This document shows positions 18,510 through 35,540 of a stretch of DNA of 64,000 nt, in pieces; the first letter of the stretch is position 1, and each line of letters opens with the position of its first letter. A program made the translations under genes and the position numbers. The DNA comes from Spirochaetales bacterium (GTDB taxonomy: Bacteria > Spirochaetota > Spirochaetia > DSM-2461): assembly GCA_028533045.1 (NCBI GenBank), contig JAQQAP010000008.1:124001-188000 (forward strand), read 5' to 3'. The notes beneath the pieces are model-generated. The model saw only the letters and a list, made by a program, of their open reading frames with translations. It searched no databases and was not told the DNA's origin.

Positions 18510-20759
18510 ATGAGACAATTGCTATCGAGGCTTAAATGGATTATTCTCCTGGCCGGTTTGACCGTAAGTCTTTCCGCCCAGGATAACTATGTGACAAGCG
18601 GAGACTTTGCCGCGATGAGGAGCTCCATTGACTATCTTTGGATTGTTGTGGCCGCATCGCTGGTTTTTCTTATGCAGGCCGGATTCATGGCGGTGGAAGC
18701 GGGACTTTCCCGGGCGAAGAACTCCATAAATGTGGCTATTAAAAATGTGGCCGACTTTATTATTGCCGCCGCCGGTTTTTGGATTGTCGGCTTTGGCTTG
18801 ATGTTCGGCGACAGTTTGGGGGGATTGTTCGGAACCACCGGCTTCTTTGTGGAAATGGACGATACCTGGACGGCGGTCTTTTTCCTGTTCCAAGTAGTCT
18901 TTGTGGGGACTTCTGCGACAATTGACTCCGGTTCCGTGGCGGAACGGACCAAGTTCGCCTCCTACCTGATTATGAGTTTGATTACATCCGTTCTCATATA
19001 TCCCGTTTTCGGGCACTGGGCCTGGGGGAGCTTCTGGCAGGGGACCTCTTTCGGCTGGCTGGAAGGGAAGGGGTTCATCGATTTTGCCGGTTCCACCGTG
19101 GTTCACTCGGTGGGGGCCTGGGTCGGCCTTGCCGGAGCGATTATCATCGGTCCCCGAATCGGGAAGTTCGATAAGGACGGGAAGGCCAAAAAAATCCCCG
19201 GTCATAATCTTCCTTTGGCGTTTCTTGGGGTGTTCATTCTGTTTTTTGGCTGGTTCGGTTTTAACGGGGGAAGTACCCTGGCTGCCAACGATCAGGTCCC
19301 GGGTATTATTGTTAATACGGTTATGGCCGCCAGCTTCGGCGGGCTCTCTGCGGGTATCCTCAGTTGGGTTCTTTCTCCCAACCGCCTTCCCGAGCCGGAG
19401 ATGATCGGAAACGGGATTTTAGGCGGCCTGGTCGCCATTACAGCGGGATGCGCCAGCTTTGGGATTCAGGCATCCGTCGTAGTCGGTATTGCCGCCGGTT
19501 TTCTGATTTACTTTGGCATCTGGTTCCTGGAGAATGTCCTTAAAATTGACGATGTGGTAAGCGCCATCCCGGTTCACGGGTTCTGCGGGGCCTGGGGTAC
19601 TTTTGCGGTAGGGCTTTTTATCAAGCAGGAGTATCTTGATGCGGCCCATATGACCCGCCTGGATCAAATCGGCATTCAGAGCTTGGGAGTTATCTCCGCT
19701 TTTATCTGGTCCTTCGGCCTGGCTTTTCTCTGTTTGAAAATGATTAACGGCGTCCTGGGGCTCCGGGTGAGCCGGGAACACGAAGAGATGGGGCTGAATG
19801 TGGCCGAGCACGGTTCCAGTTCCTCCCTTCTTGAGCTGATTAAAACCACCCGAGAGGTAATAGAAAAAAAAGAGTACGGCAAGGAGATCTCGATTAGCAA
19901 TATCGAACACGGGACCGAAGCGGGAGTCCTTGCCGAAAGCTTTAACGAAATGATGAAGGGGCTGCGGGATGACTTTAATGCTAAAGAGGAGCATCTGAAC
20001 GCCCAGAAAGCCCATATTGAGAAGGCCCGGGCCCAGGAAACCATGCTCCGTTTGAATGTGGACGAGGGGATAAGGAATATCCTCCAGGTTATGGCCAAGG
20101 CCAACGAGCTTTCCCGCAGTGTGGAGAGCGAATCCATGTCGGTGGCCAAATTCGCCCATGAGACGAAGGATAATGTTGCCGTATCGGTCCAGAGTATCCA
20201 GGAAGTCCTGAACAACATGGAAGAGATTCGGACGACCAACACCCGTACCATAGACAGCATGAAGGAGTTGAATAATCAGATCGCCAACATCTGGGAAATA
20301 GTGAAAATCATCTCCAAAGTGGCCGATCAAACCAAGATTCTCGCGTTCAATGCAGAGTTGGAAGCGAATGCCGCCGGTGACGCGGGGAAGAACTTTACCA
20401 TCGTGGCGAAGGAGATCCGGCGTCTGGCGGACAGCACCCTCGGTTCCTCCAAAGATATACGAATCAAGATTACCCAGATTCAGAAATCCTCCGAAGCGCT
20501 CATCGGCTCTGCCAACAATACCTTTGGGGTCATTGAGCAGGGAAATACCCTCTCTTCGGAGATGAATAACCGCATTCTAAAGATTGAGGGAACCTCTACT
20601 GCTTCGGCTTCTTCCGCCGATGTGATTGCCGATTTTATCAATCAGCAGGTGGAGAGCTACAATACGATCTACCGCACTCTTAAGGACATCAGTTCCCAGA
20701 TTGATCAAAGTGAGATAGGGGATGTCGATTATGATGATCCCGCTCTTCTTGAAGTCTGA
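18510..20759 (+). CDS. Ammonium transporter-chemoreceptor fusion (Amt-HAMP-MCP)
   Basis: 749 residues. A signal peptide (about 1-23) is followed by a full Amt/Mep/Rh domain of about 11 helices (residues about 35-425). The pore twin histidines are present, His199 in DFAGSTVVH and His356 in IPVHGFCGAWG, with Asp191. A HAMP-like segment (about 465-490), a coiled coil and an MCP signalling domain follow. The tip is ADQTKILAFNAELEANAAGDAGKNF, the same variant as its operon partner. Amt fused to a histidine kinase is known; fusion to an MCP would make an ammonium chemoreceptor. Whether it also transports is open. It is convergent, with a 2-base gap, to the che/cyclase operon. SD aaaagggagag. Confidence 0.92.
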   Translation: MRQLLSRLKWIILLAGLTVSLSAQDNYVTSGDFAAMRSSIDYLWIVVAASLVFLMQAGFMAVEAGLSRAKNSINVAIKNVADFIIAAAGFWIVGFGLMFGDSLGGLFGTTGFFVEMDDTWTAVFFLFQVVFVGTSATIDSGSVAERTKFASYLIMSLITSVLIYPVFGHWAWGSFWQGTSFGWLEGKGFIDFAGSTVVHSVGAWVGLAGAIIIGPRIGKFDKDGKAKKIPGHNLPLAFLGVFILFFGWFGFNGGSTLAANDQVPGIIVNTVMAASFGGLSAGILSWVLSPNRLPEPEMIGNGILGGLVAITAGCASFGIQASVVVGIAAGFLIYFGIWFLENVLKIDDVVSAIPVHGFCGAWGTFAVGLFIKQEYLDAAHMTRLDQIGIQSLGVISAFIWSFGLAFLCLKMINGVLGLRVSREHEEMGLNVAEHGSSSSLLELIKTTREVIEKKEYGKEISISNIEHGTEAGVLAESFNEMMKGLRDDFNAKEEHLNAQKAHIEKARAQETMLRLNVDEGIRNILQVMAKANELSRSVESESMSVAKFAHETKDNVAVSVQSIQEVLNNMEEIRTTNTRTIDSMKELNNQIANIWEIVKIISKVADQTKILAFNAELEANAAGDAGKNFTIVAKEIRRLADSTLGSSKDIRIKITQIQKSSEALIGSANNTFGVIEQGNTLSSEMNNRILKIEGTSTASASSADVIADFINQQVESYNTIYRTLKDISSQIDQSEIGDVDYDDPALLEV

Positions 20760-20761
20760 TC

Positions 20762-22513
20762 TTACTTGAAATCCAGGGTGACAGCCCCGTCCCAGGAACC
20801 TTCCGGAGCTTTTTCCCGGAAGGTTTCGCAGCGCTCGATAAATTGTTTGGTGGGAAAGTCATCGGCAATGAGTTTCAGGGCATGGTTCAGATATTTCAGA
20901 GCAATTCTCCAGTTCCCGATGATATACATGCGAATCCCTTTCTCATAGGAATCCCGCCAGTCTTCGGAAAATCTTTCCCCCTCAATTTCCAGGGAGTAGA
21001 TTCGGGTGGATTCGCTCTTTCCTTTTACCCTGGCAATGTCCACAAGCCGGGAATAGTGCTCCCGATCCAGCTGGTTTCTCACTTCCTCGGAGATGAGAAT
21101 GGGAACCCGGTAATGCTTTGTTAAGCTTTCGAGGCGGGCGGCCAGGTTTACCGTATCTCCAATGGCGGTGTAGTCAAATTTCTCCGAACAGCCTATGTTC
21201 CCGATGATGGCTTTTCCCCTGTTTAATCCCACCCCAATGGAGAATCCTCCCTCGGGAAGTTTTAAATAGGAGGTATCCGTGTTGGGATATTCCTCTATCA
21301 TCATTTTGGCTGCCCGGGCCGCTCGGGCCGCATTGTCCGGATAGCTGACTGGGGCCCCGAATATGGCATAGATCGCATCGCCGATAAATTTGTCGATGGC
21401 CCCTCCCTGCCACTGGATAATCTCTACCATATTGCTAAAGTGGGAATTGAGAAAATTGACCACGTTGTCCGGTGAGTTCTCTTTCATTATTTGTTCGAAA
21501 TTTCGAATGTGGCAGAAGAGGACGACAATGGTTCTGTTCTCTCCTGTCATGAGATCCTCGTCGGAATCTTTTATAATCAGATCGTCTATAATCTCCGGAG
21601 GGAGGAATTTGGTGAAGGCGCTATAGATGGTTTCCGTTTCGCCTTTCTTTTTCTGAAAGCGGTTGTAGAGAGCTATCATCCTTACGATATGGGCGGTGAG
21701 TTTTAGTCGGCTTTGGGAGGTGATCTTGGCCCCTTTTCTTCCCTCTTTACCGGATATTACGACTCCCCTTTGGCGTACTTCGGGAATCTTCAGACCATCA
21801 TAATAGGAGAGGGTTTTTTCAAAGTCCTTGTTTTCCTCTTTGTTTAGGGCCAGGTTACGGCATTGGGTAAAGAGTTTCTTCTCTTCGCCCTGATCCATTG
21901 GCTTGGCGTAAAAATGTTCTTCCGGTCCCAGGGGTGTTTCAAAGCGAATATAGGCGAAGTCCGAGTGAAGTACGGACATGGTTTGCTGTAAAAGTGTTTG
22001 GTAAAAATGTTTTTGGCTGCTAACGTCCACCGCTCCCAACTCACGGGCGCAGTAAGCTTCATGGATATTGATGAGCAGGGAGGCCTTGGAGCCCGCTTTC
22101 ATCTGATTTTGCGAGGAGGGCCAATCGGGGTTTTCCGATGTCTTTAGAAAACGGTTAGTTTTATGTGTCCTGCTTTGGTGCAGGATTTTCGCCAGGGCGA
22201 TTTTGGTCTCCTGCCGGGAGATATCTTCCCTCCCCAGACTCATTTTAACGGGGAACAGAGGGGCTTGTTCGTGGTCACCCATAAATACCAGGGGAACTTC
22301 TCTTAATTCGGGGAGGGAGCTAAGGAAGAAAATCAGAGAGGCGATGTCCGGGCAGAGGCTGTCTCCGAGCAAAATCAGGGAAGGGGATTTTTCATAGAGT
22401 TCCTTAAAGAAATCTTCCTGAGTGGAGGCCCACAGGGGATTGAACTGTTTAAGTTCATTAATTGTCAAAGCGGCCATTAATTGTGATGATTCCCCGTATA
22501 GTATGTCTCCCAT
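20762..22513 (-). CDS. Class III nucleotide cyclase subunit, C2-like: first metal Asp replaced by His
   Basis: 583 residues. A receiver-like N-terminus (about 1-110, phospho-acceptor not convincing) precedes a middle region that may be GAF-like (about 145-290) and a class III cyclase homology domain (about 320-490). In the domain the first metal-binding position is His335 (LFCHIRNF instead of LFSDIRSF). The second metal Asp379 and the adenine-selecting Lys375 and Asp453 are present. The transition-state pair is intact: Asn456 and Arg460 in VNLAAR. It therefore resembles the C2 half of a paired cyclase. A short tail of about 70 residues looks TPR-like. It is the last gene of the che operon, and its ATG directly follows the stop of the partner cyclase. 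Confidence 0.85.
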   Translation of the reverse strand: MGDILYGESSQLMAALTINELKQFNPLWASTQEDFFKELYEKSPSLILLGDSLCPDIASLIFFLSSLPELREVPLVFMGDHEQAPLFPVKMSLGREDISRQETKIALAKILHQSRTHKTNRFLKTSENPDWPSSQNQMKAGSKASLLINIHEAYCARELGAVDVSSQKHFYQTLLQQTMSVLHSDFAYIRFETPLGPEEHFYAKPMDQGEEKKLFTQCRNLALNKEENKDFEKTLSYYDGLKIPEVRQRGVVISGKEGRKGAKITSQSRLKLTAHIVRMIALYNRFQKKKGETETIYSAFTKFLPPEIIDDLIIKDSDEDLMTGENRTIVVLFCHIRNFEQIMKENSPDNVVNFLNSHFSNMVEIIQWQGGAIDKFIGDAIYAIFGAPVSYPDNAARAARAAKMMIEEYPNTDTSYLKLPEGGFSIGVGLNRGKAIIGNIGCSEKFDYTAIGDTVNLAARLESLTKHYRVPILISEEVRNQLDREHYSRLVDIARVKGKSESTRIYSLEIEGERFSEDWRDSYEKGIRMYIIGNWRIALKYLNHALKLIADDFPTKQFIERCETFREKAPEGSWDGAVTLDFK

Positions 22514-24088
22514 TCAGCTTTCCTTTGGAGTATAGAGCCCTTCCGGCCACTCTTCGTCCTTTCCCTTTTCCAGTACGGTGATGAGGGGGACTCTCTTTGA
22601 GACAGCCCGGGCCACATCGGCGGTAAAGAGAATGTTTTTTTTATAATGCTTGGTGATTCCTTCCAGCTCTTCTGCAATCCCTATTACGTCGCCAATGGCG
22701 GTAAAGGCTCTTTTTGCGTTAGAGCCTATGTTCCCGATAATGGCATCCCCCCGGTGTACGCCGATTCCTATGCGGTAGTGCTCTTCCGAGAGAATCAGGT
22801 TGCTGCAATCCACGTCGGCTACACAGTCTATCATCTCCCTGGCGGCCTGTACGGCACAGAGAACCGGATCCTCCTCTCCTTCGGACAAGCCAAAGATGGC
22901 CACGATGGCGTCACCTATGAATTTATCTATGGTTCCCCCGTACTTTTTGATTTTGTCTACCATGGCCTCAAAGTGGCGGTTGAGGAACTCCACCACATCC
23001 TTGGGGCTGTTGTTCTCCGTTATGGTGGTGAATGAACGGATATCGGAAAAGAGCAGGGTTATCTCCTTCTTTTCTACCTTCCGGGCGCTTTGCTCCCGCT
23101 CCTGTTCTATGAGGTCGGGAATGATATGGGGCGGGACGAATTTGGAGAAGATATTGAAAATCTTCTCCTGCCTTATGGAGTTAAGCGTACTGTTGAGAGA
23201 GTAGTTAAGGGGATACTCCATTTGTCTGGCGTAGCTCCGAATTTCATCCAGGAGGGCTCCTTTGAAGTAGTTGTTATTCAAATGTCCCATATGGAGGCTT
23301 CCCACGGGACTGCCGTCGGAGTCGTTTAGGGGGAGGTAGTAGTAGGAGCTGATTTTTTGGCTTCTCCCGTTTATCCGATTAAAGGACTCTTCGTCGCCAA
23401 AAAGGGTTTCCCGGGGATTTTCCATATCCGCTCCCTGGAAGAGCCGGTAGAAATCGTTAAGGCAGAAGCCCAGAAAGTCCTCATAGTCTTCCCTGACTAT
23501 CCCTTCGGAAGGATAGATATAGGAGTCTACACTGTGGTTGTGGTGGAGGAGAATCACGGCCAGGTGGGTTTGAGTGATTTCCTTTAGTTTTCCCAACAGG
23601 AGGCGGATTGTTTTGGAAAGGACCTCCGTTTCGTAGGGAATGGCCCCTATGTTGCTGCCCACTGTTAATTTCTCCAGAGCGATTAAGAGCCTGTGATTCG
23701 TTTCCTGTTCGGAAAGATCTATGGTCAGGGGGGTGATGATTTTCCGTTTTTCCTCTTTCTTTTCGGTCCCCCTTTCTCCGGCAGAGCGGAAAAAGAGCTC
23801 GCTTGCGGGGTAAACCTCGTCTCCTCCCAGGGCCATGAACAGGTTCTGGAGTTGGGGCGACTCTTTTTTAAGGAGTCCGTAGACCGGCAGTTGGCGGGAA
23901 TTGAAGTACTCCCGGATTCCGCTTAGAACGGCGATCCAGTCGCTCTCTTCCAAATCGAGCAAAAAAGCCCGGGGGATTTGAGACTCCCTTTCAAAGCTGA
24001 GCCGTTCCCGGGAGGGGAGGGGGAGAATCTTATGCTTTTCCCTCCACTTCGTTTCCAGAGTAAGGGAGGGGGACACCATGACAAACAT
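22514..24088 (-). CDS. Class III nucleotide cyclase subunit, C1-like: metal Asp pair kept, transition-state Asn/Arg lost
   Basis: 524 residues. A receiver-like stretch (about 40-102) and a possible GAF-like region (about 130-300) precede the cyclase domain (about 335-500). Both metal-binding aspartates are present (Asp349 in LFSDIRSF, Asp393 in FIGDAI), as are Lys389 and Asp467. The Asn and Arg of the usual VNLAARLE motif are Gly470 and Glu474 (VIGIAEELE). Alone it should be catalytically poor. Its defects complement those of the next gene, so an obligate heterodimer with one full active site is inferred. ATG 24088 lies three bases after the cheA stop and TGA is followed at once by the ATG of the partner, so tight co-expression is expected. 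Confidence 0.86.
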   Translation of the reverse strand: MFVMVSPSLTLETKWREKHKILPLPSRERLSFERESQIPRAFLLDLEESDWIAVLSGIREYFNSRQLPVYGLLKKESPQLQNLFMALGGDEVYPASELFFRSAGERGTEKKEEKRKIITPLTIDLSEQETNHRLLIALEKLTVGSNIGAIPYETEVLSKTIRLLLGKLKEITQTHLAVILLHHNHSVDSYIYPSEGIVREDYEDFLGFCLNDFYRLFQGADMENPRETLFGDEESFNRINGRSQKISSYYYLPLNDSDGSPVGSLHMGHLNNNYFKGALLDEIRSYARQMEYPLNYSLNSTLNSIRQEKIFNIFSKFVPPHIIPDLIEQEREQSARKVEKKEITLLFSDIRSFTTITENNSPKDVVEFLNRHFEAMVDKIKKYGGTIDKFIGDAIVAIFGLSEGEEDPVLCAVQAAREMIDCVADVDCSNLILSEEHYRIGIGVHRGDAIIGNIGSNAKRAFTAIGDVIGIAEELEGITKHYKKNILFTADVARAVSKRVPLITVLEKGKDEEWPEGLYTPKES

Positions 24089-24091
24089 AAC

Positions 24092-26266
24092 TTATCCTAT
24101 GAGATCCCGGACCTTGTCCAGAAGATTTCCCCGGTCAAAGTCTTTCTTGGATACCAGATCATTCCCCCCGATAGAGCGAACTTTCTCCATCAGTTCATCC
24201 TTGTTCTCCGAACTGACCACGATAATGGGGGTGTTCCTGTACTTTGTCTGGCGCCGGACATTTTCTATGAGGGTCAGTCCGTCCATGCGGGGCATTCGCA
24301 CATCGGTAAGAATGAGGTGGAAGTACTGCTCCTTAAGCTTTTCCAGGGCATCGATGCCGTCCACGGCTGTAGAAACGTTAAACTCTCCCATTTCCAGAAT
24401 GGATTTTTCAATTTCCCGGGTGGAAAGGGAGTCGTCCACTACAAGGATCTGTTTGTAATGCTTATCTTCCGGAGTGAACCGTTCTTTGAATTCGATATTC
24501 CTGATTCCTTTGAAGCGGTTTATTAACTCCGGGATGAACAGGATGTTGATAATCTCGAAGTTTTCATCAAAGACGATTCCCTGGAGAACTTTGAGTTTGG
24601 AAAGTTTTCCCGGGAGGGGTTTGAAGATCATGGAGGAAAATTGAATTACCGTGTCCACCGATATGCCTATGATATCCCCCATGGATTCCACCACTACTAT
24701 GGAGAGTTTATCCGACTGGGGCGCCGCTTCCTCATCGAGTAAGGCGGAAAGAGGGTAGACCGGAATAATCATATCTCGCAGGCGTATGACGTTCCGATTG
24801 TACATCATCATTACCTCATCCCTTTTGATGATGAGAATCTCCTTTACAAAGGCGGCGGGAATAAGGAATTTTTTCTCCTGAACCGATACGAAGAAGCCGT
24901 CCACCGTGGCCAGGGAGAGGGGGAGGGACAGTTCAAAATCGGTTCCCTTGCCCGGTTCGCTCTTAACGGTGATTTTTCCCTTGGTTTTTTCCACATTGGT
25001 GCGGACAATATCCAGGCCCACCCCTCGTCCGGAGAGGCTTGTCACCTTTTGCGTTGTGGTAAAGCCCGACTGGAAGAGATAGCTTGAGAGGGCTCCCCGG
25101 TCCATCTTTTGGATCTCCTCCTCCATCTCCGGGTAGAGGGAGATCGCTTTCTGGCGTATGGCGTCGTAATCCAGTCCCTTGCCGTCATCGGAAATCTGTA
25201 TGTTCACTCTCCCGCTCTCGGCGATACATCTTACGGTGAGGTTGCCCCGGGGGGGCTTGCCGGCGCTTTTTCTTACTTCCGGCGTTTCGAGTCCGTGGTC
25301 TATGGCGTTTCTGATCAGGTGGATGACCGGGTCGTTTATATGTTCCAGAATGGCCTTATCCAGCAGAATGTTGGAGCCGATTATCTTGAATTCCACTTCC
25401 TTTCCTATGAGCAGGGAGATCTCTTCCACCATTTTCTTTAAGGGATCCATGACAATGTTAAGGGGAAGCATTTGGAGACTGAGGATATCTTCCTGAAGCT
25501 CAAAGCTCATATGTTCCAGCTGGACCATCTCGTCTATGTAGGTCTTCCGTATGTCCTGAGTCAGCTTGAGATCTTTGCTCAGGTTTTTAATTACCCCTTC
25601 CGTTTCGGCCTTTCCCGGGAGATTTCTCAGCCTTCTTAAACTGTCGCGCAGGCCCTCTTCAAGAAGGGCGAGATTTTCGTTTTCCCGTTTAAACTGGAAC
25701 TGCTGGATAATGACCCCATTCAGCTTTTTGACTATATCATCGATTTTGCTGACTTTGATTCGGATGGTCTCATAATCTCCCAAGCCTCCCGTATCATCGC
25801 TCTCCTCCTCGGAAAAAGAGCCCGATGTCCGGTCCGCTGGGGATTTGAAGTCATCCTCCAGGTCTTCAATAGAGTAATTCTGCCCCGATTCGGCCTTGCG
25901 GAAGAGTTCCCTGAGCTTTTTGATCTGAATGTCGTCCGTCCCGGAGACTTTTACTTTCTTGAGTCCTTCCTCCATATATCCCACGGCGGAAAGAACAAGT
26001 TGAAAAAGGCTGTTGCCCAAGGGAACCTTCTTTTCCCGGACGCCCTTAAAGAGGTTTTCCAATTCATGGCTGATGGATTCGATCTTTTTGTAATCCATCA
26101 TTCGGGCGGCTCCCTTAAGGGTGTGGAGAAGCCGTAATAACTCGGCCAGGTTTTCCCTATCCTCCGGGGTTTTTCTCAGGGCAATGATGATGTCGCTCAG
26201 GGCGGTGAGGTTCTCTCTGGATTCGCTGACGTAATTGTCAATAAAAGACTTTTTATCGATGGCCAT
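24092..26266 (-). CDS. cheA: Chemotaxis histidine kinase CheA with C-terminal receiver domain
   Basis: 724 residues. HPt domain with phospho-acceptor His48 in LLHTLKGAA, an acidic linker, dimerisation helices, HATPase_c (N box HLIRNAIDHG, G1 DDGKGLD, G2 GRGVGLDIV), a CheW-like domain and a C-terminal REC with acceptor Asp655 in LILTDVRMP. The fused receiver is typical of alternative (non-flagellar) chemosensory systems and can act as a phosphate sink or output. No separate CheY is encoded in this operon. It overlaps cheR by 14 bases and is followed after three bases by the first cyclase gene. Confidence 0.95.
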   Translation of the reverse strand: MAIDKKSFIDNYVSESRENLTALSDIIIALRKTPEDRENLAELLRLLHTLKGAARMMDYKKIESISHELENLFKGVREKKVPLGNSLFQLVLSAVGYMEEGLKKVKVSGTDDIQIKKLRELFRKAESGQNYSIEDLEDDFKSPADRTSGSFSEEESDDTGGLGDYETIRIKVSKIDDIVKKLNGVIIQQFQFKRENENLALLEEGLRDSLRRLRNLPGKAETEGVIKNLSKDLKLTQDIRKTYIDEMVQLEHMSFELQEDILSLQMLPLNIVMDPLKKMVEEISLLIGKEVEFKIIGSNILLDKAILEHINDPVIHLIRNAIDHGLETPEVRKSAGKPPRGNLTVRCIAESGRVNIQISDDGKGLDYDAIRQKAISLYPEMEEEIQKMDRGALSSYLFQSGFTTTQKVTSLSGRGVGLDIVRTNVEKTKGKITVKSEPGKGTDFELSLPLSLATVDGFFVSVQEKKFLIPAAFVKEILIIKRDEVMMMYNRNVIRLRDMIIPVYPLSALLDEEAAPQSDKLSIVVVESMGDIIGISVDTVIQFSSMIFKPLPGKLSKLKVLQGIVFDENFEIINILFIPELINRFKGIRNIEFKERFTPEDKHYKQILVVDDSLSTREIEKSILEMGEFNVSTAVDGIDALEKLKEQYFHLILTDVRMPRMDGLTLIENVRRQTKYRNTPIIVVSSENKDELMEKVRSIGGNDLVSKKDFDRGNLLDKVRDLIG

Positions 26267-27704
26267 TGATCGTTCCTTTTTCTAATTTTGCTAGTCCGTT
26301 TTTACAGATTTCCAGAAAATAGCGGGCATTGAAGCCTTCCAACAGGAATTGATAATCAATCCTGTTCTGCTCTATATAGTCATTAATTTGATCTATGAGG
26401 ATTTTAAGTTCCGATTCCTTCCGGGCCCTGCTGCTCTCCAGGGAGAAGAGGGAAAAGTATCGGGCGGGCCAAAAGCGGGGGTTCTCTTTGAGGCTGGAGG
26501 CAAGGTATTCCGAGGCCTTTTTCCCATCCCCCATTTGAAGGGCGATAAAACCACCCAAATAGTTGTACAGACTGGAAGGGAAAAGTTCTGCGGGGAGATC
26601 GTCAAAGGAGCTGTTTGCCCGGGAAAGCTCTCCCGATTCAATCAAATAAAGAAGGGCCACGAGTTTTTCCGCCAGTTGGTGTGTTTGGTTTTCCTTTTGG
26701 AGGGAACAGCTGTTGTTGAGAATGTCGGTAATGAGGAGGCAGAGTTCCTCTTCCTTGGGAGGAGTGAAAGGAGGTTCTTTCTTTTGGTCTGTGGTGACTT
26801 CCTGCCGGTGAGGCAATCGGTTGGGAGGCTGGGGGGCGTCCTGTGTTCTGAGGGTATTTTCTTCCAGGGTGCTCTGCAGTTTTTGGCGGCTTAGGGTCCT
26901 GGGGTCTCTTTTTCTCAAAAAGTAGTAGCCCTCCCTTTCTTCTACCTGAAGTTGGGGGTGGGAAATCAGGGCTACTTCCGGGGCGGCGGTAATGAGCAAG
27001 CCCCCCACCCGAAGATGTCTGGTGAATTTATCTATGATTTTGTGCTTGTTGCGGCTTTCCATGTAAATGAGGGTGTTCTTGAGAAAGATCAGATCCATGG
27101 GAGGCAGGAATTCAAAGCTGTCTTCAAAGAGATTGGTTCTATGTATATTAATTTTCTCTATGATTCTTTGATCTATGCACAGCCGACCTTCCCTGTCCTG
27201 TCCCTTTTTAATTCTGTCCAGTAAGTAGTGGTGCTCCTGACCGTCCTTGCGAAGGGCCTTGCCGGCGTAAACCCCTTTTTTGAAGTGGTCCAGAACCTGT
27301 TGGTTAATATCCAGAGCATGGACGGTAAAGAGTGCTTCCGGCAGGGAATTCATGAGGAGGGCGTAGAGGGAGAGGGCCTCTTCCCCGGTGGAGCATCCGG
27401 CGCTGAGCACATTGATGCTTTTTCCTTCCCTTATATAGGAGGGGATTATATGCTTTTCCAGGAAACGAAAAGATTTTTCCTCCCTAAAGAAGTAGGTTTC
27501 ATTGATGGTGATAAAGTCGATGAGGGCCTGGAACTCTTCCTTGTCTTCTCCGAGGAAGGAGAGGTACTCCCCGGGCTTCCACTGTTTTTGAGTTATCCTG
27601 CGATTGATGAAGCTTTCCATATTCAGCTCGTTTATGGGGATTGTGCCAATACCCGTTTTCTCTTCAATCAGTGAGGTAATACTCTGTTCCAGGGGGTAGC
27701 TCAT
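26253..27704 (-). CDS. cheR: Chemotaxis protein methyltransferase CheR with helical repeat tail
   Basis: 483 residues. The N-terminal CheR helical domain and the SAM-binding domain (LSAGCSTGEEALSL, then HALDINQQVL) fill about 1-275. A linker and a C-terminal region with TPR-like helices (PAELFPSSLYNYLGGFIALQMGDGKKASEYLASSL) follow. It methylates glutamates of receptors, using S-adenosylmethionine. The start is set at ATG 27704, which overlaps the cheB TGA (ATGA); a TTG nine bases upstream is less likely. The TPR tail could dock it to a particular receptor or array. Confidence 0.93.
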   Translation of the reverse strand: MSYPLEQSITSLIEEKTGIGTIPINELNMESFINRRITQKQWKPGEYLSFLGEDKEEFQALIDFITINETYFFREEKSFRFLEKHIIPSYIREGKSINVLSAGCSTGEEALSLYALLMNSLPEALFTVHALDINQQVLDHFKKGVYAGKALRKDGQEHHYLLDRIKKGQDREGRLCIDQRIIEKINIHRTNLFEDSFEFLPPMDLIFLKNTLIYMESRNKHKIIDKFTRHLRVGGLLITAAPEVALISHPQLQVEEREGYYFLRKRDPRTLSRQKLQSTLEENTLRTQDAPQPPNRLPHRQEVTTDQKKEPPFTPPKEEELCLLITDILNNSCSLQKENQTHQLAEKLVALLYLIESGELSRANSSFDDLPAELFPSSLYNYLGGFIALQMGDGKKASEYLASSLKENPRFWPARYFSLFSLESSRARKESELKILIDQINDYIEQNRIDYQFLLEGFNARYFLEICKNGLAKLEKGTINGHR

Positions 27705-28735
27705 AGGCGGCAAAGTTCCTTGATGGTCGAGGCCATTTTGTCCAGGGGAAGAATGCGGGAGGCTCCGTTCCTCTCGGCCGCCGCTTTGGGCATTCCGTAG
27801 ATGAGTGAACTTTCTTCATCCTGTACGAGTGTTGTTCCCCCGGCGGTGACAATTTCTACGCAGCCCTCGGCCCCGTCCTGTCCCATACCGGTAAGGAGGA
27901 CGGCCAAACCCTCTTTGCCGTATTTTTTGGCCACGGAGGTAAACATTTTATCCACCGAGGGTTTCTGGTTGTTGTAGCGGGGGGAGTCGTCACAGTAGAT
28001 TCGGGCTCCCTGGCAGAGGAGATGGCGGGTTGCCGGGGCGACCAGGGCTGTTCCCGCTTGAAGGGTATCCGTTTCTTTTGCCAGACGGACCGTAAGTTCC
28101 GTTCCCGAATTAAGCCAACTGGCATAACCGGCGTCAAAGCCTTCTTCTATATGCTGGGAAATGATGATGGGCAGGGGAAAGTCTCCCGGGAGGCCGGAGA
28201 GTAGGGTTCGGACGGCCGCTGGGCCTCCCGTTGAGGCACCTATGGCCAACACAGAGAAGGTACTGGTCCTCTTTTCTATTCTTTCCGGTTTGGTCTCTGC
28301 TGATTTTGCCATTTCGCCCCGGGGTTTTCGTCCTTTCTGAATCCGGAATTTTCCGTATTTAGATATATTCTCAAGAACGCTTTTAAAATTCTCTATAAAG
28401 CCGGGGGCATTCATTTTATCTACGCTGGGCTTGGGAATTAACTCCAGAGCCCCGTTGTTCAGAGCTTTATATCCCACTTCTGAGATGTCTTCGCTGGTGA
28501 GAATGACAATGGGAACCGGGGCGATTTCCATGATTCTGCCCGTGGCTTCTATCCCGTCCATGACGGGCATGTTCACATCCATGAGAATGAGGTCCGGTTC
28601 AAGCTCTTTTGCCATCTCTATGGCCTTCTGTCCGTTCCCCGCTTCACCGGCCACCTGGAACCCCTCAACGGAAGAGATGATTTCTTTTAAAATGGAACGA
28701 ATCAGGTATGAATCGTCAACAAGTAGTATTTTCAT
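27701..28735 (-). CDS. cheB: Chemotaxis response regulator protein-glutamate methylesterase
   Basis: 344 residues. REC domain with acceptor Asp53 (LILMDVNMPVMDG), a linker, then the methylesterase domain with the nucleophile Ser168 in GASTGGP, the histidine in ISQHIEEGF and the aspartate in GMGQDGAEG. It removes methyl groups from receptors when phosphorylated by CheA and so provides adaptation. Start ATG 28735 overlaps the stop of the CheW-like gene by four bases. Confidence 0.95.
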   Translation of the reverse strand: MKILLVDDSYLIRSILKEIISSVEGFQVAGEAGNGQKAIEMAKELEPDLILMDVNMPVMDGIEATGRIMEIAPVPIVILTSEDISEVGYKALNNGALELIPKPSVDKMNAPGFIENFKSVLENISKYGKFRIQKGRKPRGEMAKSAETKPERIEKRTSTFSVLAIGASTGGPAAVRTLLSGLPGDFPLPIIISQHIEEGFDAGYASWLNSGTELTVRLAKETDTLQAGTALVAPATRHLLCQGARIYCDDSPRYNNQKPSVDKMFTSVAKKYGKEGLAVLLTGMGQDGAEGCVEIVTAGGTTLVQDEESSLIYGMPKAAAERNGASRILPLDKMASTIKELCRL

Positions 28736-29262
28736 AGGCTTTTTCCTCTAAGAATATTGATCAGGCATTTTTGGAGATGAATGAAAAACTGAATTTTCCC
28801 CTCCTCCACGAAGCGGGAACCAAGCAGGGCGTGGTCCTGAAGCAGGCTGTCCACCCCGGGGGGATTCAGATTCATCTCTTCCAGAGGAAGCTGTTGGATC
28901 TCCGCCTGACTGGATATGATGATGCCGATAACTTCCTGGCTGAATCGCTTGTTTTGTCCCAGGACTTTCCGGAGAATTTTTTCGTATGGGGGAAAGGTAT
29001 CTTCCAGTCTGATTATAAGGCATACCTGGGATTCGCTGTCTTCCCGGGTTTCATACTTATCCATCAAGAAGCGGTTCAGGTCGCAAAGAAGCATCTTTTC
29101 CTCATTGTAGTCGGTATATTGACAGAAATAGGGGTTGCGTGATCTGAGGGAGGTGACTTCCTCGATAGATGCGCTGGCGGAGAATTGCTTTCGGCTAATA
29201 AGAAAATCCTTGTCCCGGTAATTCAGCACAAGGAAATCTCCCGCTTCTCCCTCAATAGGCAT
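28732..29262 (-). CDS. Divergent CheW-like or unknown chemosensory protein
   Basis: 176 residues without signal peptide or membrane helix. The first half (DFLVLNYRDKDFLISRKQF...SIEEVTSLRSRNPYFCQYTDY...LLCDLNRFLMD) has the strand pattern of the start of a CheW domain. The rest (QVCLIIRLE...KVLGQNKRFSQEVIGIIISSQAEIQQLPLEEM) also fits, but without a clear family signature. It sits between cheW and cheB, overlapping both (11 and 4 bases), with a strong SD (ggaggagg). A second adaptor tuned to this array is the simplest guess; I do not recognise it with confidence. Confidence 0.6.
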   Translation of the reverse strand: MPIEGEAGDFLVLNYRDKDFLISRKQFSASASIEEVTSLRSRNPYFCQYTDYNEEKMLLCDLNRFLMDKYETREDSESQVCLIIRLEDTFPPYEKILRKVLGQNKRFSQEVIGIIISSQAEIQQLPLEEMNLNPPGVDSLLQDHALLGSRFVEEGKIQFFIHLQKCLINILRGKSL

Positions 29263-29779
29263 CGATATCCTCCTCCATCCGGGTAATGACCGAAGCCAGA
29301 TTCAGTACGAATATCTCTTCGTCGTGGGGACTGATCGAACCAAGGAAGAAGTCGTCATCCTTTATGGTGGATGTTATTTTGTGTAGTTTGCTTTCTCCCA
29401 GGTTTACAATCTCCAACACGTCGGAGATGAGAAGAGCCAACTGGTCGTTTTCTTTTTTGAGAACGAGAAAAGTGGAGGATTCGAGCTTTTTGTTCTCCAG
29501 CATGGCCGTAATATCCAGGACCGTATAAGGTTCCCCGTGGCGATTGATAAAGCCCCTAAGGTAGGGCGGCGTAAAGGGGACGTAAAAGATGGGCGTGTTG
29601 CCGATTATCTCCTTAACCTCATCGGCGAAAAGGGCGTATTTTTTATCATCTATACTGATTATCATGTATTTGATGAATTTTTCGATTCGTACGCCCTCTC
29701 CCTGCTCCGGGTTTTTGCGTGACTCCTTGATCCGCTGGAGGAGGGGATCGTCATGGGTCTTTTTTAGGCTTTCAGGCAT
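29252..29779 (-). CDS. cheW: Chemotaxis adaptor CheW
   Basis: 175 residues. An N-terminal extension of about 30 polar residues is followed by a typical CheW domain: KYMIISIDDKKYALFADEVKEII, a YLRGFINRHGEPYTVLDI core motif and ALLISDVLEIVNL. It links receptors to CheA in the array. SD aaagga precedes ATG 29779, four bases after the MCP stop. It is one of two adaptor-like genes in the operon. Confidence 0.9.
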   Translation of the reverse strand: MPESLKKTHDDPLLQRIKESRKNPEQGEGVRIEKFIKYMIISIDDKKYALFADEVKEIIGNTPIFYVPFTPPYLRGFINRHGEPYTVLDITAMLENKKLESSTFLVLKKENDQLALLISDVLEIVNLGESKLHKITSTIKDDDFFLGSISPHDEEIFVLNLASVITRMEEDIDAY

Positions 29780-29783
29780 CTTT

Positions 29784-30968
29784 CTATCCTTTCAATTCAA
29801 TTTCTTGGGGTTCTAATTCCAAAGGACTGAACTCGCTGGCGGAGTTCAGAGCCTCATAGGAAACTTTTACTTGGTCCGTAAGCCGGGAGAGTTCTTCCAT
29901 ATCCATTGTCGCTTGTCTGAGTTTTTCCAGAACTTCCCCGGAGGAGGTCACTTGCTCCTGAAAAATATGGCTTATCTCTTCGGTGGATGAGGCGGCTATC
30001 TCGGTGGAGTGCAATACTTCTTCAAATATCTTTTCCAGCTCTTTAGACAGTTTATTTCCTTCGCTTATGAGCTCCGTGCCGTTTTCCGAAGAGATGATCA
30101 GGTTATCCGACGAGTGCTGGATTTCCGTAATCTTCCCTCTTATTTCGTTGGTGGATGAGATGGTGCTGTCCGCCAGCCGTCTGATCTCGGCGGCTACTAT
30201 CTGAAAGTTTTTTCCCGCGTCTCCTGCGGCTGCTGCTTCAAGTTCGGCATTAAAAGCGATGATCTTCGTTTGGTCCGTAATCTGATTGATCATCTTGATG
30301 ATCTCCCAGATCTTCTCGATTCTTTCACTCAGAAAGAGGATCCCCTTGAGAGTATCCCTGTTAGAACTTTCTATTTCATCCATCTTTCTCAGGCTCTTTC
30401 CTACCAGTTCAAACCCACTCAGAAAAGCCTCTTTGAGAGAGAGGGTGATGCGGTAAATTTCTTCAAAATCGTGTGAAATATTTTGAAACAGTTCTCCCCT
30501 GTCTTCCATACCGGACAGCATATCCCGGAGTTGTTCCTTTTGGGTGCGGGCCATTTCGGGGAGCCGGTCGGTGGATACCCCGTAATTCACGCTGGACTCA
30601 ATCAGCTCCTGGCAGTACTGATCCATTTTTTGGGTGGCCCCTTTCTCTTTTTGGTAGAGATTTATTACAATGGTGAAGAGCTTCTTTAGCTCTCCATAGG
30701 GTTCGAAAGAGGGCGATTCTTCTTTCCTGAGAGATTCCAGCATTTTCCCGAACTGTCGGAGTTTTCCCCTTGTTTGTAACAAAAGCAAGACAGATGTCAT
30801 AAGGGAAATTCCCAAAAGGGTCAGGTAGGATGTACTGTGTTCTGTGAGCAGGCCCGGTTCGAGGAAGGGAAAAGCGATAAAAGGTAAGAGGACGAGAGAG
30901 CCCAGGAGGATCAGCCCCCTGGAAAGGCCGATTTTTTTTGTTTTCCCGTTTTTTGGTGCAGAGCTCAT
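29784..30968 (-). CDS. Methyl-accepting chemotaxis protein without a periplasmic domain, non-canonical tip
   Basis: 394 residues. Two adjacent N-terminal transmembrane helices (about 16-36 and 47-64) leave almost no periplasmic loop, so sensing must be membrane-internal, cytoplasmic or indirect. The signalling hairpin has the variant tip TDQTKIIAFNAELEAAAAGDAGKNF seen in the receptors at 16389 and 18510. Encoded inside the che operon, it is probably the core receptor of the array. SD-like aagggg lies upstream of ATG 30968, nine bases after the PilZ gene. Confidence 0.9.
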   Translation of the reverse strand: MSSAPKNGKTKKIGLSRGLILLGSLVLLPFIAFPFLEPGLLTEHSTSYLTLLGISLMTSVLLLLQTRGKLRQFGKMLESLRKEESPSFEPYGELKKLFTIVINLYQKEKGATQKMDQYCQELIESSVNYGVSTDRLPEMARTQKEQLRDMLSGMEDRGELFQNISHDFEEIYRITLSLKEAFLSGFELVGKSLRKMDEIESSNRDTLKGILFLSERIEKIWEIIKMINQITDQTKIIAFNAELEAAAAGDAGKNFQIVAAEIRRLADSTISSTNEIRGKITEIQHSSDNLIISSENGTELISEGNKLSKELEKIFEEVLHSTEIAASSTEEISHIFQEQVTSSGEVLEKLRQATMDMEELSRLTDQVKVSYEALNSASEFSPLELEPQEIELKG

Positions 30969-33491: not shown

Positions 33492-35540
33492 ATGGGTTTG
33501 TCGCCGGTTATAAAAGTTGATAATGAAAAATGTACCAACTGCCATCAATGTATTAGTGTTTGTCCCGTTAAGTTTTGTATGGATGGGAGTGGCGATGTTA
33601 TTATTCTGAATCATGAGCTCTGTATTGCCTGCGGTAACTGTATTGATGCCTGCTCCCATGGGGCCCGTCTGAGAATGGATGATTTTGAATCTTTTCTGGA
33701 AGATTCCCGTCTAAAGCCTATGGTTGCCATTGTTGCACCTGCTGTTGTCGCTACATTTGGTGATGATATGTTAAGGGTAAACGGTTTGCTTCGCTCCCTG
33801 GGGGTGGAAGCCATGTTCGATGTAAGTTTTGGTGCGGAATTAACGATTCAAAGTTATCTTGAGCATATTAAGGAGAACCAACCGGAGTTGGTTATTTCTC
33901 AGCCCTGTCCGGCTATCGTTAATTATATTGAGTTATATAAACCTGAACTCCTTTCCTATTTGGCTCCTGCCGATAGCCCTATGTTGCATACGATGAAGAT
34001 GATTAAGGAATTTTATCCCTCCTTTTCCAATCATAAGATAGTCGTTTTATCTCCCTGTTTGGCAAAAAAAAGAGAGTTGGAAGTGACTGGTTTGGGAGAT
34101 TACAATATTACTCTGGAAGGAGTGGAGAGTTACCTGGAGAGAATCGGAAAGTCCATAAAAGACTATGATGAGGTAGCTTTTTTCAGCCCTGATCCAGAAA
34201 GGGCTGTTCTTTTTTCCTCCCCCGGAGGCTTGTTGGCGACATTGGAAAGAGAAAACCCCATAGCTGCTCAAAAAACAAGAAAAATCGAAGGGCCCGATCT
34301 GGTCTACCCCTATTTGGAAAGTCTACCTCAGTCTTTGAAAGATGGAGTGAATCCGCTTATTGTGGATTGTTTAAACTGCGAGAAAGGTTGCAACGGCGGA
34401 ACGGGTACCAGAAATCGTAATCTCTCTATGGATCATTTGGAGCATGCGATTGAGCAGCGAGCGGTAACCCAAATAAAGAGGAATAAGAGAAAGATCAATA
34501 AGGCTATAAAAAAATACTGGGATAAAGATTTATACTCTCGGCACTATATTGATCGATCGGCGTCTGTGAAAATACTTACACCCAATGAAGAAGAGATTAA
34601 ACAAATTTACCGTGATATGCATAAGTATAGCGACAATGATATTAAAAATTGTGCTTCCTGTGGCTACAATAAATGCGAGGATATGGCAAAGGCCATATAC
34701 AACGGACTGAACCGTGTTGAGAACTGTCACTATTATCAGTCCGATATAGTCGCGATTGCTCGGGACAAATCAATTAGTCTGAGTAATCGTATTAATGATA
34801 AGATTAATGAATCTTCTTCCGAAATGCTCAAAATAAGCGAGATGGTAGAGACCCTTATGGCCAGGACGCAGAATCAAAGTGCGAATATAGAGGAGAGTTC
34901 CGCTGCTGTTAAGCAGATGATGAGTTCCATTTCCGCCGTTCACGATAATTTACTTGAACGAAAAGGTGTTGTCTCTGATTTGAAGGAAACCGCAGAGAGT
35001 AAAATATCCGGCTTAAGAGATATGGTAAACTCCATAAGGGAAGTCGTTAATGGGGTAGATAAAGTTCAGGAATTTAACAATACCGTTGATAATATTGCTC
35101 AAAACACAAACCTGCTTGCCATGAATGCCTCTATTGAGGCAGCCCATGCAGGAGAACATGGCAGAGGTTTTTCTGTCGTAGCGGGAGAAATCCGAAAGTT
35201 GGCTGAAGAAACCGGTGAAAATGCTCATAATATTGCCGACGACCTTAAAAAAATAACGACAGATATTAAAAATTCTATGAGAGTTTCCGAAGAAAGCAGT
35301 TCGGATATGGAGAAGATAATAGGCGACTTCTTTCGAATTAGTGACAGTCTTGCTCATATTTCCGCCAGTATGTCGGAGATGAGTGCCGGGACAGAGCAAA
35401 TTCAGACCTCTATGACAAGCATGGTGGAAGGGAGCCACGGGGTTGCCGAATTTTGTGAAGTTATGGGCGAGATGGTGAGGAATTTAGAGCGTATTTTTAA
35501 TGAGCTAACCGAGATGAGTCAACATCGGGAGATTGTTTGA
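33492..35540 (+). CDS. [FeFe]-hydrogenase-like sensor fused to a chemoreceptor signalling domain
   Basis: 682 residues, no membrane segment. Two [4Fe-4S] ferredoxin motifs (Cys14/17/20/24 and 44/47/50/54) are followed by an H-cluster domain. All four likely cluster cysteines are present: Cys139 in SQPCP, Cys189 in SPCLAKKRE, Cys296 and Cys300 in NCEKGC. The proton-transfer Cys before Cys139 is Pro, and the methionines of the usual motifs 2 and 3 appear as Ser and Leu, as expected for sensory rather than catalytic enzymes. An ACS-type Fe-S motif (Cys387/390/395/412) and an MCP signalling domain (about 440-682) with a near-canonical tip follow. A cytosolic H2 or redox receptor is inferred. SD aaggag. 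Confidence 0.9.

Follow-up and report, generated by a model that had tools for sequence, protein, structure and literature searches.

A complementary split of class III cyclase active-site residues between two adjacent spirochaete genes suggests an obligate heterodimer linked to a chemosensory cluster

In class III nucleotide cyclases of known structure, the two metal-binding aspartates of a site come from one chain of the dimer and the residues that contact the base, the ribose and the transition state, including the catalytic Asn and Arg, come from the other (PMC3591389; PMC4174876). The prokaryotic enzymes are typically homodimers (survey, PMC4886424), and heterodimers have been reviewed as a feature of higher eukaryotes (PMC8815786). 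A two-gene example is animal soluble guanylate cyclase (sGC), in which the alpha subunit carries metal aspartates D486 and D530, the beta subunit carries N548, R552 and K593, and homodimers are inactive (PMC3591389; PMC8196705); in the human enzyme this inactivity is due to the spread of key residues over both subunits (PMC3591389). Mammalian transmembrane adenylate cyclases distribute their residues on the same complementary plan between domains C1 and C2. The NeoR/RGC rhodopsin guanylyl cyclases of chytrid fungi are likewise obligate class III heterodimers from separate genes, but no residue of known catalytic importance is missing from RGC1 or RGC2 (PMC8815786), and their need for a heterodimer therefore lies elsewhere.

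We analyzed a pair of class III cyclase genes, cycA and cycB, in a 64,000-nucleotide stretch of the genome of a Spirochaetales bacterium (the window; contig JAQQAP010000008.1, positions 124,001 to 188,000). The first-pass annotation of this DNA had reported that the two genes have no spacer, and indeed the TGA of cycA is followed at the very next base by the ATG of cycB; the genes share a reading frame and form two open reading frames with a stop codon between them. To that account we can add that the genes are on the minus strand, with cycA upstream of cycB, and that the pair follows cheB–cheR–cheA (Table 1). Both products match the class III cyclase family PF00211 well above the Pfam cut-off of 21.9 bits, and the monomer models, which are of moderate confidence (mean pLDDT 71 for CycA and 72 for CycB; full-length pTM 0.40 and 0.50), have the class III fold. 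Pfam found no H-NOX haem domain in either protein, and neither Pfam nor the monomer models gave a membrane domain.

Table 1. Positions in the window of the cyclase pair, its active-site residues and the neighboring chemotaxis genes, with domain limits in residues and the loci of the 13 pairs
Feature	Position	Strand	Details
cycA	22514..24088	-	524 aa; open reading frame; putative metal-binding subunit; PF00211, 65.4 bits; model; orthologues
cycB	20762..22513	-	583 aa; open reading frame; putative base/ribose/transition-state subunit; PF00211, 79.9 bits; model; orthologues
CycA domains			N-terminal region without Pfam match; GAF-like ~155-275; linker helix 278-314; class III catalytic domain 339-492 (Pfam)
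CycB domains			receiver-like fold ~1-115; helical/GAF-like middle; catalytic domain 327-502 (Pfam); helical TPR-like tail 517-583
CycA Asp349	23042..23044	-	first metal aspartate; kept in 13/13 CycA
CycA Asp393	22910..22912	-	second metal aspartate; kept in 13/13 CycA
CycA Gly470	22679..22681	-	catalytic Asn position; Asn in 0/13 CycA
CycA Glu473	22670..22672	-	one residue ahead of catalytic Arg position; Glu in 13/13 CycA, Ala in 13/13 CycB, Ser in 51/54 singles
CycA Glu474	22667..22669	-	catalytic Arg position; Arg in 0/13 CycA, Glu in 10
CycB His335	21509..21511	-	first metal aspartate position; His in 13/13 CycB
CycB Lys375 to Asp379	21377..21391	-	adenine-selecting Lys and second metal aspartate; both kept
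CycB Asp447, Asn456, Arg460	21134..21175	-	adenine-selecting Asp, catalytic Asn and Arg; kept in 13/13
CycB Lys499	21017..21019	-	lysine of VKGK motif; kept in CycB
cheA	24092..26266	-	724 aa; Hpt-HATPase-CheW-receiver (hybrid); Pfam
cheR	26253..27713	-	methyltransferase; Pfam; synteny
cheB	27701..28735	-	methylesterase with receiver; Pfam; synteny
cheW	29252..29779	-	coupling protein; Pfam
Methyl-accepting receptor	29784..30968	-	MCPsignal; Pfam
Pair loci, family f1			G000, G002, G004, G009, G015, G010, G014
Pair loci, other families			G080 (f13), G280 (f45), G408 (f59), G415 (f63), G435 (f69), G452 (f74)

The case for a joint enzyme starts from the active-site residues. The set formed by two metal aspartates, Asn and Arg at the dimer interface is incomplete in either chain alone and complete only across CycA and CycB. 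On re-reading, all seven assignments in the first-pass annotation were correct (Asp349, Asp393, Gly470 and Glu474 of CycA; His335, Asn456 and Arg460 of CycB). In addition, CycB keeps Asp379, the Lys/Asp pair and the lysine of the VKGK motif, a motif lost from CycA. Lys375 and Asp447 are the pair found in ATP-type enzymes, and the Glu/Cys pair that marks GTP use in soluble guanylate cyclase is absent.

The search for orthologues covered 61 relatives, the family's 26 genomes, 395 genomes for the class and 393 for the phylum, and the GTDB contig collection; class and phylum were sampled, E-value limits were strict and the survey is non-exhaustive. The active-site positions of all cyclases were scored on one common profile. 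Adjacent cyclase pairs directly after cheA were found at 13 loci in seven spirochaete families, and in most of them the genes abut or are a few bases apart. Every CycA has both metal aspartates and has lost Asn and Arg, with Gly, Ala, Ser, Thr, Glu or Arg at the Asn position and Glu (ten proteins), Gly, Ala or Leu (one each) at the Arg position. Every CycB has His for the first metal aspartate and retains the second aspartate, the Lys, the base-contacting Asp, Asn and Arg. In contrast, all 54 distinct single che-linked cyclases are complete, none has the split pattern, and the first metal position is Asp in 54/54 and His in 0/54. The residue pattern is not due to chance, because it is present in 13/13 adjacent che-linked pairs and in 0/54 distinct singles. 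The first-pass annotation had predicted that the two substitution patterns would occur together in relatives, as they do in all 13 pairs across the seven families, and had named orphan genes or independent variation as evidence against a split enzyme; no orphan CycA or CycB was present among the genomes surveyed. A 14th CycB, that of G085, is at the end of its contig and falls outside this count. Within family f1, a CheA orthologue and the pair are present in exactly the same seven genomes.

This conservation also bears on whether the pattern is an artefact, either a sequencing or assembly error or the pseudogene decay of a duplicated cyclase. The window comes from a draft genome of 47 contigs with an estimated contamination of 7%, which lends the idea some initial weight, but the same residues recur in 13 genomes of seven families, the reading frames are intact and 46 of 196 columns are invariant among the 13 CycA catalytic domains. 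We consider decay or assembly error refuted by these observations and leave an artefact only a negligible chance.

When 13 CycA, 13 CycB and 54 single cyclases are compared, few positions are fixed differently between the subunits. One is the first metal position, Asp in CycA and His in CycB, and another is the residue ahead of the catalytic Arg, where CycA has the invariant Glu473, CycB an equally invariant Ala and the singles mostly Ser. A Val/Phe difference at CycB position 382 is nearly fixed. The emphasis originally placed on Glu474 at the Arg position is right for the window but does not carry over to all pairs, as Glu is found there in 10/13 CycA and the invariant glutamate is the adjacent Glu473. 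A rule that every CycA has exactly one Glu at its Asn or Arg position was also considered and fails in G452, which has Ser and Ala. By homology with known dimers, His335 of CycB and Glu473 of CycA would sit on opposite chains of one dead site, and the two may be the mark of its rebuilding.

We interpret CycA and CycB, with a probability of about 0.85, as together forming a single class III cyclase, an obligate heterodimer that would have one complete adenylate-type site and one dead site and would act as an output of the chemosensory cluster. In a head-to-tail catalytic dimer, CycA would supply Asp349 and Asp393 for metal binding, and CycB would supply Lys375 and Asp447 to select adenine, Asn456 to bind the ribose, Arg460 for the transition state and Lys499 to contact phosphate. 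The mixed dimer would thus hold exactly one complete site, in which the Lys/Asp pair marks ATP use, and should make cAMP, the likely product. The second site, where His335 and Asp379 of CycB would lie opposite Gly470, Glu473 and Glu474 of CycA, is predicted to be dead and is probably structural or regulatory. A homodimer of CycA would bind metal without having Asn and Arg, and one of CycB would have both of these but miss the first metal aspartate. We infer from this arrangement that CycA and CycB dimerize and that both subunits are needed; some activity of a CycB homodimer is conceivable, since Asp379 is kept.

Such residual activity could be the whole of the function if CycB were an active homodimer, holding its metal with His335 and Asp379 or using a single metal, and CycA were a dead regulator that binds CycB or ATP. 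CycB does retain all catalytic residues but one, the replacement is a residue that can bind metals and is fixed in 13/13 proteins, and several catalytic residues are gone from CycA. This explanation leaves unaccounted for, however, both the retention of the two metal aspartates in 13/13 CycA proteins, which diverge faster than CycB (mean p-distance 0.52 versus 0.43), and the Asp, never His, of all 54 single-gene relatives. The invariance of the CycA aspartates despite faster change speaks against decay of CycA or a purely regulatory role for it, and we regard an active CycB homodimer as unlikely. We give even less credence to the idea that both proteins are pseudo-cyclases whose dimer, by binding ATP or some other nucleotide, serves the chemosensory array as a sensor or scaffold and makes no cyclic nucleotide. 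Pseudo-enzymes often retain ligand-binding residues and the pair remains tied to CheA, but binding alone needs less than the full catalytic set that is invariant over the two chains in 13/13 pairs, including the transition-state Arg and both metal aspartates.

An obligate heterodimer is also consistent with the history of the genes. In a tree with the six trait columns masked, CycA forms one clade and CycB forms one clade among the singles (support 99/97 for each; 99-100% of bootstrap trees), as they also did in a previous tree built on 11 CycA and 12 CycB. Because each subunit forms a single clade, the set is explained by a single tandem duplication of a gene for a complete REC-GAF-cyclase; together with one complementary split and joint inheritance since then, it would account for all of the pairs. 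The internal relations of the two clades are largely parallel, and pairwise distances in CycA and CycB are correlated (r = 0.92 over 11 pairs, permutation p 0.0001), although any pair of linked genes should show such co-inheritance and mirrored distances, which are no proof of contact. The duplicated gene probably encoded a REC-GAF-cyclase with a TPR-like tail, the form still seen in single cyclases such as L077, L078 and L092. After duplication the copies would have lost opposite halves of the active site, CycA would also have shed the C-terminal tail, and the receivers would have decayed, in the window pair to below Pfam detection. Since all pairs share one duplication, the complementary loss counts as one event, and the strength of the evidence is in the invariance since.

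The single che-linked REC-GAF-cyclases of spirochaetes are the nearest relatives of the pair. L077, L078 and L092 lie directly after cheA and have the same domain order, and the singles share the TPR-like tail of CycB. They differ from the pair in having a complete site in one chain (54/54), and are therefore able to work as homodimers, and several have an intact receiver, unlike the window proteins. Two observations concern the distribution of these genes. L078 (JAABSP010000024.1) is a spirochaete-type cheB–cheR–cheA–cyclase cluster on a contig binned as Desulfobacteraceae, which reflects either horizontal transfer or mis-binning. The genome G280 has two che clusters (L211 and L212, on contigs C178 and C76), one with a single complete cyclase and one with a split pair, so that both forms can be compared within one cell.

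Among described heterodimers, the first-pass annotation had likened the pair to mammalian C1/C2. The complementary split on which that comparison was based holds in 13/13 pairs, but two separate genes make the pair closer to sGC alpha/beta than to the fused C1/C2 chain. Like sGC, the pair consists of two homologous genes and would have one active and one pseudo-symmetric site, as judged here from the genes; unlike sGC, it stems from a separate bacterial duplication, has an ATP-type Lys/Asp pair in CycB, receiver/GAF-type N-termini and a linkage to cheA, and is without a match to the H-NOX domain that sGC carries. Among the best 50 fold matches, the sGC matches of CycA are chain A entries and those of CycB are chain B entries, a division that is only suggestive. 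With C1/C2 the pair shares the ATP-type residues as well as the complementary plan, whereas C1/C2 is one polypeptide with 12 transmembrane helices and CycA and CycB are two soluble-looking proteins. By analogy, CycA/CycB would work like sGC and C1/C2 but is a member of neither group.

The position of the pair suggests what the enzyme may serve. On one strand the run reads MCP, cheW, a small gene, cheB, cheR, cheA, cycA and cycB, so that the pair is its end, and no separate cheY was seen in the run. The small gene, between cheW and cheB, encodes 176 aa without a Pfam match (28732-29262, minus strand). A cyclase directly after cheB–cheR–cheA is found both in the window and in its relatives. It is plausible, at somewhat better than even odds, that the enzyme is the output of the adjacent CheA/CheB/CheR/CheW/MCP system. 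A precedent is Pseudomonas aeruginosa, whose Pil-Chp chemosensory system is linked to the class III adenylate cyclase CyaB and cAMP (PMC3019171 and other papers); unlike the pair, CyaB is the product of one gene (structure of its catalytic domain, 3r5g), and here the cyclase genes sit within the che run. Against a route from CheA to the cyclase, the receivers of both window proteins look unphosphorylatable. Neither has a Pfam match to the receiver family PF00072 or an intact phosphorylatable receiver of the kind expected in a CheA-coupled response-regulator cyclase, and the CycB N-terminus, which has receiver-like alternating strands and helices in the model, is without the acidic pair and phospho-Asp that the single cyclase L077 has.

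On the opposite strand, two receptor genes converge on the run. One (18510-20759, plus strand), convergent with cycB and ending two bases away from it, encodes an MCP signaling domain joined to an ammonium transporter domain (PF00909, 378 bits) and is likely an ammonium chemoreceptor. Separately, a gene at 33492-35540 (plus strand) encodes a 682-aa fusion of Fe_hyd_lg_C (iron-only hydrogenase), 4Fe-4S and Fe-S cluster domains with an MCP signaling domain, possibly a hydrogen- or redox-sensing chemoreceptor. Elsewhere, the genome has nine places matching PF00211 and 15 matching the cyclic-nucleotide-binding family PF00027.

In the spirochaetes with the pair, a two-subunit cyclase resembling those of animals appears to have arisen independently. 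In the open-licence literature we found no report of a natural bacterial class III cyclase split over two genes; subscription journals may hold one. A fuller proposal, which we advance tentatively and at a little under even odds, is that this is an independent bacterial two-gene obligate-heterodimer adenylate cyclase with one live site and one rebuilt dead site, in which the newly fixed His335 of CycB and Glu473 of CycA (13/13 each) lock the heterodimer or bind a regulator, so that the chemosensory array controls cAMP through an asymmetric enzyme. The pair would represent the step from homodimer to heterodimer caught within a single bacterial lineage, where relatives still carry the complete single-gene enzyme of the ancestral type and G280 carries it beside the pair. 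Because both proteins appear soluble, they should make it possible to test how and why a symmetric enzyme with two sites becomes an asymmetric one with a single site and a spare pocket. For the organism, the finding suggests a spirochaete pathway that would run from a chemosensory cluster to a cyclase; 14 cyclic-nucleotide-binding domains of this genome score above the Pfam cut-off.
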